Source of the DNA: an uncultured Verrucomicrobiales bacterium
GTDB taxonomy: Bacteria; Verrucomicrobiota; Verrucomicrobiia; Verrucomicrobiales; DEV007
DNA: 60,520 nucleotides
NCBI GenBank assembly: GCA_937891465.1
Contig: CALAHF010000089.1
Location: 1-60,520, forward strand
Reading direction: 5' to 3'
How positions within the stretch are numbered: the stretch's first letter is position 1; every line of letters starts with the position of its first letter. Below, piece after piece: positions 1-55,345 of this stretch. Below the pieces are notes generated by a model. The model did no database searches, was not told where the DNA came from, and was given only the letters and a program-made list of their open reading frames with translations. The translations under genes and the position numbers were made by a program.

Positions 1-358
1 TGGAGGCGAGGGGAGTTGAACCCCTGTCCTAATGGCCGTCTAAATAAACGTCTACATGCATATTCGATCTTTTAATTTAGGAGTCGTGGCTTCGAACGAC
101 AGAATCCATCACCTCCGATTGCCACTGTAACCTCTCGCGTCAACGGCCGGACACCCGCCATGACGCCAGCCTGCTAAAGTAGTCATAGATTGCCTCAGCA
201 GGCGTCGGACAATCTACGGGAGGCCTAATTAGGCCGCCATTGCAAGTTCAGGTTCTTCGTTTGCTTTTGTTTGTTTGATCAGCTTTTTACGAGGCCAACT
301 GATCAACCTCGGCATGCAGTCTATCTTTCAAACCACCAGTCGAAACCAGTACGCCCCC
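1..358 (-). ncRNA. ssrA: transfer-messenger RNA (tmRNA)
   Basis: tmRNA rescues stalled ribosomes and tags the incomplete protein for degradation. Read on the minus strand, the 5' end (GGGGGCG, 358-352) pairs with the 3' end (CGCCTCC, 8-2), forming the acceptor stem. A T-arm sequence GGGTTCAACTCCCCTCGCC is visible near the 3' end. The tag reading frame runs 264 to 229: resume codon GCA, then codons for NEEPELAMAA and a TAA stop, so the added tag would be AANEEPELAMAA. The discriminator base is position 1; a CCA end, if encoded, lies outside the window. The region from about 265 to 358 resembles the usual tRNA-like domain and pseudoknot 1. Confidence 0.95.
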
Positions 359-4669: not shown

Positions 4670-5266
4670 ATGGGTGAAAACAAAACACCCATGAACGACG
4701 ACAGTTCACATCCTAACGACGACGAGAAATTCAATGAACTCGCGGAGATTGAAAGATCTCTCGGAGAATTGAAGCCATCGGAACTGAAAAGCGACTTCTT
4801 GCGTGAGCTTGAGCGCGATCAGCGGAACGTGCACCGCACGCAGACGGCGGAGCCCGGCAAAATTGTCATGGTGCGATTCATTCCGCTAATGGCCGCGGCG
4901 TGTGTTGTTTTGGTAGGGTGTCTGGCCTTCCAAATGGGAGCATTTAGGTCCGATCCTGCACCGACGAATTCTGTCGTGGCAAATTCCACTGCACCTAAAA
5001 ATGTCGTCCCGCCAGAGGATGAGTATCTTATCAATGGCCTTCCACCGAGAGGTGGGGATGGGTTTCAACCCGTTTCTGCACAGGGAATTATTCGAAACGC
5101 CTCTGCTGGAGGTGCCGTGCAAATTGATGAGAGTGGGCGTCTCGTGCGGGAAATGAGCCTGGAAGTCGAAGATGTCTATCACTTTCACAATCCCGAAACG
5201 AAAACGAACATTCGATTCTACTCCCCTCGGGAAGTGATCATCATGATGCCCGTAGAGGCGGAGTGA
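4670..5266 (+). CDS. single-pass membrane protein, possibly anti-sigma-like
   Basis: The protein has a charged cytoplasmic N-terminus (about 65 residues), one transmembrane helix (MAAACVVLVGCLAFQMGAF, about residues 68-87) and a periplasmic C-terminal half ending VIIMMPVEAE. This layout recalls membrane anti-sigma factors, but no cysteine/histidine zinc-finger motif is present and no sigma gene is adjacent, so the function stays open. ATG at 4691 (MNDDSSHPND) is an alternative start. It precedes the PDZ protein by 23 bp, and the two are probably one operon. Confidence 0.6.
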   Translation: MGENKTPMNDDSSHPNDDEKFNELAEIERSLGELKPSELKSDFLRELERDQRNVHRTQTAEPGKIVMVRFIPLMAAACVVLVGCLAFQMGAFRSDPAPTNSVVANSTAPKNVVPPEDEYLINGLPPRGGDGFQPVSAQGIIRNASAGGAVQIDESGRLVREMSLEVEDVYHFHNPETKTNIRFYSPREVIIMMPVEAE

Positions 5267-54274: not shown

Positions 54275-55345
54275 TTAACCCGCTTCAGCAACAATCTCTT
54301 CGATTGCTTTTTCCAAAGAATCTCCCCGCAGCCCGATGTGGCGAATGACGCCTTTTTGATCTAGCAAATAAAGCGTCGGCCAACCGGAAACATTCCATTT
54401 CGTCGCAATCGGGCCTCCCGTGCTTCCACCGTCCCAAAACGAATCCCACAGGATGGTGCCGTCTTTTCGGAGTGAATTGAGTTTTTCCCGTGGATCGCTG
54501 TTTACGCCCACGATGGTGAATTTTCCTTCGAACGTCTTCACGAGCGACCGCTCGTGTTCGTACATGGCGCGACAAGGGCCTCACCAATCGCCCCAGAAAT
54601 CAATCAGGACGACTTTCCCTCGATAATCACTCAGCTTCATCGCAACACCCGCACCGTTCTCGCCCGTAATTTCAGGAGCCTCTTTTCCGATTGCCAGAGC
54701 GGTCAGCGAGAACAATTGAGCATCCGCTAACTCTCCGATGCTCTTTCCGCGAGCGGTTTTAACCTCTGAATAATCAGCACTCAACGTTTCAAGAGTCGCA
54801 ATCGTTTTGGCTTCGAGCGCTTCTTTTTCGGGACCAGGGGGCATTCGTTTCAAAGAACGCGAATCATTGCTCACTATCACAAACATCGATTTTGCTTTCA
54901 CCGCTGGCTGTGGAGACGATTCCGCCAGCGTTTGCAGAGCAGCAGCAGCCTTTTCATTGCGGCGATAACCGAGATAACTTGGCAGGTTCTCCATTTCCGG
55001 CGAATCCAAGTGATCTTTCAGCAATGCATCGATCGCCTTGTCCCCAATCGGGTTCATTTCCCGATCAGCCGTCAAAATCCAAACCAACGCTTTTGGAGCG
55101 ATCGCGTGCTCGGGATTTTCAGAAGCGAGGTTCCACGCTTTTTCAAGATACGGCACAACCTTTGGCCGCTTTTTCAGAACGGCCTGCCGTTCCTCGCTGG
55201 GAGTGCTTCGGTAAAGGGTCATGAAATCATTCATCTCCTTTTTCAGACCTGACGAAATCGCTTCGAACGCCTTCGCGGGATCCGCACTTTCATCCTGCCC
55301 GAAGCAGGAACTCGCCACCAAAATCAATGCTAAAAACATCCTCAT
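54275..55345 (-). CDS. TlpA-like thioredoxin selenoprotein (UGA in the active site)
   Basis: The reading frame runs from ATG 55345 (MRMFLALILVASSCFGQ, signal peptide) through a helical region to a thioredoxin domain. At 54583-54581 there is an in-frame TGA within KVVLIDFWGDW-stop-GPCRAMYEHE, exactly where the first Cys of WCGPC belongs. The rest of the domain, including cis-Pro SGWPTLYLLD, continues in the same frame to TAA 54275. With Sec at codon 255 the product has 356 residues and a U-G-P-C site. A matching SECIS hairpin follows the UGA. Automated calling would give two false genes. It probably acts as a periplasmic redox protein; the long N-terminal domain is not recognised. ATG 55339 is an alternative start. 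Confidence 0.88.
54539..54556 (-). promoter_or_regulatory. predicted bacterial SECIS element
   Basis: On the mRNA, CACGAGC pairs with GCUCGUG (7 perfect pairs) around a GGUC tetraloop, the same loop sequence as the E. coli fdhF SECIS. The stem begins 24 nt after the UGA, so the loop is about 31 nt away, within the range known for bacterial SECIS elements. It would bind SelB and direct selenocysteine insertion. Confidence 0.85.

Follow-up and report, generated by a model that had tools for sequence, protein, structure and literature searches.

Results

A minus-strand gene with a single in-frame TGA

The window, by which we mean the whole analysed stretch of 60,520 nucleotides, belongs to a genome of an uncultured Verrucomicrobiales bacterium (G000; 5.97 Mb, 96% complete). 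It carries a gene on the minus strand that runs from an ATG at 55345 to a TAA ending at 54275. A preliminary description of this DNA had given the interval 54275-55345 without a strand; the interval stands, and the gene proves to be a minus-strand one, while the plus strand of the same interval is out of frame and contains several stops. Translation of the minus strand with TGA read as sense yields 356 residues. The sole interruption, at codon 255 (54583..54581), is a TGA flanked as in DFWGDW-U-GPCRAM. The earlier claim of one TGA in an otherwise open 356-codon frame, placed at the first Cys of a WCGPC motif, was thus confirmed by translation. Standard ORF calling splits the gene into a 294-amino acid N-terminal ORF (extended upstream) and a 96-amino acid C-terminal ORF; a whole-genome search of G000 recovered it with one internal TGA. 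The features of the locus are as follows:

54275..55345, minus strand: whole gene, predicted to encode a secreted TlpA/ResA-like selenoprotein of 356 amino acids with Sec255 (translation; Pfam AhpC-TSA, Redoxin, and Thioredoxin_8 over cut-off)
55289..55345, minus strand: signal-peptide-like N terminus MRMFLALILVASSCFGQDE, residues 1-19 (inspection by eye; low pLDDT over 1-19)
54701..55288, minus strand: predicted N-terminal all-helical domain, residues 20-215, about ten helices (AlphaFold2 model, mean pLDDT 87)
54278..54700, minus strand: TlpA/ResA-type thioredoxin-fold domain, residues 216-356 (Pfam, AlphaFold2 model, structure matches to DsbE/ResA)
54581..54583, minus strand: in-frame TGA codon 255, first position of UGPC (translation; same codon in 83 homologous genes)
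54572..54574, minus strand: codon of Cys258, putative resolving or partner Cys of UGPC (translation; invariant in aligned orthologues)
54539..54556, minus strand: candidate SECIS hairpin CACGAGC-GGUC-GCUCGUG, encoding HERSLV, with the loop at +32..+35 after the UGA (fold; codon conservation)
54377..54379, minus strand: Pro323 (GWPT), cis-Pro of the thioredoxin fold by homology (invariant W322-P323)

In the rest of the window, only a few places away from long ORFs could be joined across a TGA, and none had a UxxC or CxxU context; they resemble junctions between one gene and the next, or non-coding frames. The window also contains a complete tmRNA gene (1-358, minus strand) with the tag ANEEPELAMAA.

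The C-terminal domain resembles TlpA/ResA-type thioredoxins

Residues 216-356 matched the Pfam families AhpC-TSA, Redoxin, and Thioredoxin_8 over cut-off, with PF13905 scoring 47.8 bits against a cut-off of 27. The best structure matches were 3gl3 (Z 18.5) and ResA (2h1b, Z 18.1), and the DsbE/ResA set aligned with Z 17-18.5 over 132-141 residues. In eight aligned orthologues, W254, G256, P257, C258, and W322-P323 were invariant. Thus, the Pfam matches, the modelled fold, and the invariant W322-P323 agree with the earlier proposal of a TlpA-like thioredoxin with a cis-Pro downstream. The domain combines a thioredoxin fold and cis-Pro with the CxxC pair of TlpA/ResA-type proteins in the form UGPC, with Sec standing for the first Cys, and the conservation of both frame and protein runs through to the C terminus. 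None of the NCBIfam models reached its cut-off, including the ResA subfamily (NF002854, 49.8 versus 170 bits) and DsbE (45 versus 123 bits).

The long N-terminal helical domain suggested in the preliminary description was borne out by the AlphaFold2 model, which is predicted to be all-helical over residues 20-215. Structure searches with the model returned matches filled by the thioredoxin domain, and none gave the N-terminal part a fold. The orthologues L028 and L033 carry an extra N-terminal region of about 170-200 residues. A periplasmic location is suggested by the signal-peptide-like N terminus.

Even with Sec decoding taken as real, the main role of the enzyme could be peroxiredoxin-like reduction of peroxides or electrophiles, or a reduction related to metals or cytochromes, rather than general disulfide exchange. 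AhpC-TSA is indeed the best Pfam match, and peroxiredoxin structures also align with the model (Z ~15). However, the best structural and sequence matches are ResA, DsbE, and TlpA, and a UGPC motif with Cys258 as partner is of the thiol-disulfide type and not the TxxC/U of peroxiredoxins (motifs according to PMC13188914). We therefore regard a peroxiredoxin-like or metal-related role as rather unlikely and favor a thiol-disulfide oxidoreductase. Among 80 loci, we found no conserved neighbor genes; the largest neighbor clusters were the family itself together with its antisense frame, followed by ABC transporter ATPases in nine. Because the neighbors are not conserved, the substrate cannot be read from the genomic context.

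The TGA is conserved across genomes

Among 190 genomes of the order, the best matches (205-227 bits) were six genes with an internal TGA at the same place; one Cys-bearing match scored 195 bits, and the rest reached at most 139. SelA exceeded its cut-off in 59 of the 190, which include all seven genomes with a TGA-bearing orthologue as well as the genome with the Cys match. By our own arithmetic, the probability that the six other TGA genomes all have selA is about 7e-4, a figure to be read with the caveat that the genomes are only partly independent of one another.

Scanning 84,980 species genomes yielded 80 further loci. Most come from MAGs of Planctomycetota and Verrucomicrobiota; one MAG each bore the label Deltaproteobacteria, Armatimonadetes, or Bacillota. 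At codon 255, we found TGA in 83 homologous genes and Cys (TGT) in 5, a ratio biased by the ranking of loci by similarity to a Sec-bearing query. The alignment proposed in the preliminary description, which predicted Cys at this codon in relatives, accordingly brought up five such homologues. Of the 29 TGA genomes tested, 27 had SelB over cut-off; in the other two, the drafts G207 and G218, it was not found. Adhaeretor mobilis, the only complete chromosome among those tested, carries the Cys form, and no SelB of it reached the cut-off; SelB is present in two drafts that have the Cys form. The gene therefore shows the traits of a bacterial selenoprotein: a frame open through the UGA, homology on both sides of it, alignment of the UGA with Cys, and conservation in Sec-using genomes.

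A TGC or TGT that mutated or was misread as TGA in a pseudogene or faulty assembly of an ordinary Cys-type TlpA would need one base change only, and Cys relatives exist; yet the same TGA recurs in 83 homologous genes from independent assemblies and across phyla, the frame and protein conservation extend to the C terminus, and the hairpin is conserved at synonymous sites (see below), which refutes this explanation for all practical purposes.

Several family members show peculiarities of their own. L033 (G128) has a second in-frame TGA at codon 290 (TTAY-U-AAAD), where relatives mostly carry Arg and no redox motif is present; it may have arisen by mutation or by error, or may encode a second Sec. 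Two paralogues (G148:C639:9394-9882 and G096:C259:12787-13302) have two in-frame TGAs in the matched stretch. L064, from a Mariniblastus MAG, carries tandem Sec copies at 4766 and 5935, with UGPC and UPPC, and the tandem copies of L127 consist of one Sec (UPPC) and one Cys form.

The genome encodes a selenocysteine machinery

SelA (496 bits), SelB (283 bits, 647-amino acid ORF), and SelD (278 bits) were all found in G000 above their curated cut-offs. Contig C113, which is not the contig of the window, ends within a tRNA-Sec gene with anticodon UCA that scored 51 bits against an Rfam gathering score of 47. The gene lacks the last bases of its 3' end at the contig end and adjoins a cysteine-desulfurase-like gene. 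ARAGORN did not list the tRNA-Sec, as expected for a gene missing its 3' end. The search for selA, selB, selD, and tRNA-Sec suggested in the preliminary description, which had named a genome without sel genes as evidence against its reading, therefore found all four, and their presence indicates that the organism probably makes selenocysteine. As a separate observation, SelD (L018, G000:C43) forms the C-terminal half of a 748-amino acid ORF whose N-terminal half looks FAD-type oxidoreductase-like by eye.

A fully open frame through a UGA could also arise if UGA were reassigned throughout the genome, or if a suppressor tRNA other than tRNA-Sec decoded it, such as one that inserts Cys or Trp. 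TGA is, however, the ordinary terminator of other genes of this genome (selA, selB, an ABC-F gene, and an nth-like gene of the window), which makes a genome-wide reassignment unlikely; moreover, the position corresponds to an active-site Cys in relatives, a complete Sec machinery is present, and a SECIS-type hairpin follows, so that we give this explanation next to no credence.

Two other genes of G000, both on contig C19 (L027), attracted attention. A ResA-like protein with EYWGTR-U-GPC is encoded on the minus strand (1986-1243, TGA at 1785) and is likely a second selenoprotein of this genome; some 23 nt separate its TGA from a hairpin of 7 bp. Adjoining it, on the plus strand (489-809), lies a gene for a small HMA (MerP-like) domain protein, predicted to be secreted, with a TGA at TGVT-U-GGC that is followed by a hairpin; judged from its sequence, it is likely a further selenoprotein gene. 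PMC2398784 includes proteins of the MerP type among its selenoproteins.

The hairpin is conserved at synonymous sites

The 7-bp hairpin with a GGUC loop, reported earlier as starting 24 nt after the TGA, is present at 54556..54539 in the minimum-energy fold, which corroborates that observation. Its stability is unexceptional for its composition (z -0.59 versus dinucleotide shuffles), and 4.3% of random synonymous recodings equal or surpass the native hairpin in stability. A SECIS claim based on this single sequence alone is therefore suggestive only. Searching G000 with the pattern TGGTGANNNCCNTGY gave 17 matches, with only the window gene in a long open homologous frame.

The comparison across genomes indicates that the arrangement exceeds chance by far: the TGA recurs at the same codon in 83 homologous genes, and 72 of the 80 distinct Sec sequences have the hairpin at the usual position, all 72 with a GGUC loop and a stem of 5-7 bp. 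The inner five pairs are intact in 72/72, also where C-G has become U-A or A-U has become G-U. In the 73 class-A sequences, the Glu, Arg, Ser, and Leu of HERSLV are encoded by GAG, CGG, TCG, and CTC with zero entropy and zero synonymous variation, while most neighboring four- and sixfold degenerate codons on both sides have 1.4-1.9 bits of entropy. Class A was picked by its loop, which introduces a circularity that counting all 80 distinct Sec sequences avoids: Arg is CGG in 73/73, Ser TCG in 72/72, and Leu CTC in 78/79. Thus, the codon invariance is not an artifact of class-A selection and, as far as codon usage can tell, the hairpin is under selection at the RNA level.

The Cys relatives have lost the GGUC loop or its closing pairs. 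In two of them, L034 (CACGAGC-GCAA-GCTCGTA) and L101 (CACGAGC-GGTA-TCTCGTT), the corresponding sequences still resemble the Sec hairpin, as if it were in decay.

Nine loci representing eight distinct Sec sequences (L075, L102, L108, L114, L116, L117, L122, L124, and L136) lack the hairpin at the usual position. Most of them can form a 7-bp hairpin further downstream, with the loop at about +39. Its pairs vary in a compensatory manner, from A-U to G-C and from C-G to A-U, and 91% of its cells are paired, clearly above all slid controls, albeit in few sequences (n=8); L102 and L136 fit it poorly. The sequences without the hairpin at the usual position fall into two separate groups of a tree whose deep forks are weak, which, if both groups hold, would mean that the hairpin relocated more than once.

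Discussion

We conclude that the gene almost certainly encodes a thioredoxin-like redox enzyme, probably a secreted thiol-disulfide oxidoreductase, that uses Sec as its nucleophilic active-site residue. For SelB-dependent insertion of Sec at UGA 255, the support is as strong as sequences can give. On the mRNA, UGA codon 255 is followed by the GGUC-loop hairpin at +32; according to the mechanism we propose, SelB carrying Sec-tRNA(Sec) would bind to this hairpin, so that Sec would be inserted instead of termination. The UGPC site of the exported protein would then attack disulfides or other oxidized thiols, with Cys258 resolving the selenenylsulfide. A membrane reductase of the DsbD/CcdA type, or another one, would recycle the enzyme. 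The UGPC motif is most naturally read as a site of thiol/selenol-disulfide exchange via Sec255 and Cys258; the export, redox direction, reductant, and substrate are those we infer as most plausible for such an enzyme.

Standard gene calling cuts the gene at the TGA into a truncated 5' ORF and a spurious 3' ORF, so that annotations of a redox enzyme found in many PVC bacteria are probably wrong. With its synonymously frozen hairpin, a group in which the hairpin lies further downstream, and Cys forms whose hairpins are decaying, the family is a natural data set of unusual clarity for SECIS biology and makes Sec-to-Cys conversion and SECIS drift testable.

Descriptions of UxxC selenoproteins of the thiol-disulfide isomerase-like class go back to the Sargasso Sea survey of 2005 (PMC1088965). 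Published inventories list thiol-disulfide isomerase-like (cd02966), Prx-like thiol:disulfide oxidoreductase (PF00578), and Redoxin family (PF08534) selenoproteins, all UxxC (PMC13188914), as well as thiol-disulfide isomerase-like proteins with PF13905 and UxxC (PMC9312934), and planctomycete selenoproteomes have already been reported (PMC4807772). A literature search for the UGPC motif returned unrelated text only, such as the ugpC gene. The gene adds to the catalogued UxxC TlpA/thiol-disulfide selenoproteins, possibly as part of an unlisted subfamily, the catalogued entries having been compared by description. Our tentative proposal, which we hold with slightly less than even confidence, is that this unlisted subfamily spans Planctomycetota and Verrucomicrobiota, with Sec as the usual and Cys as the secondary state, a near-invariant SECIS that imposes HERSLV, and a fossil hairpin left upon Sec-to-Cys replacement.

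Compared by description, the Sargasso Sea family shares with the gene a UxxC at the first redox Cys, a TlpA/Thioredoxin_8-type domain (here PF13905 over cut-off together with UGPC), and an origin in environmental bacteria, but the gene differs in its long N-terminal helical domain, its PVC-centered distribution, and a SECIS that dictates HERSLV. The PF00578 Prx-like and PF08534 Redoxin selenoproteins belong to the same Pfam families, over cut-off here, and also have UxxC, whereas the domain architecture here is another and the fold is nearer to ResA/DsbE than to peroxiredoxins. With ResA, TlpA, and DsbE (CcmG), the protein has in common the fold, the position of the active site, and the invariant Pro of GWPT; in contrast to them, it would carry Sec for the first Cys and an extra N-terminal domain, and it scores far below the NCBIfam ResA and DsbE cut-offs. 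The ResA-like selenoprotein model NF041054 (WAxxUGC_long) likewise combines a ResA-like fold with Sec, but its motif is UGC instead of UGPC, and our protein reached only 18.6 against its cut-off of 300. As for the RNA element, the SECIS of E. coli fdhF has a GGUC loop at about +19 after the UGA and a GC-rich stem with a bulged U. The hairpin described here shares the GGUC apical loop and the GC-rich stem downstream of the UGA; unlike the fdhF element, it places the loop at +32, and its 7-bp stem has no bulged U.
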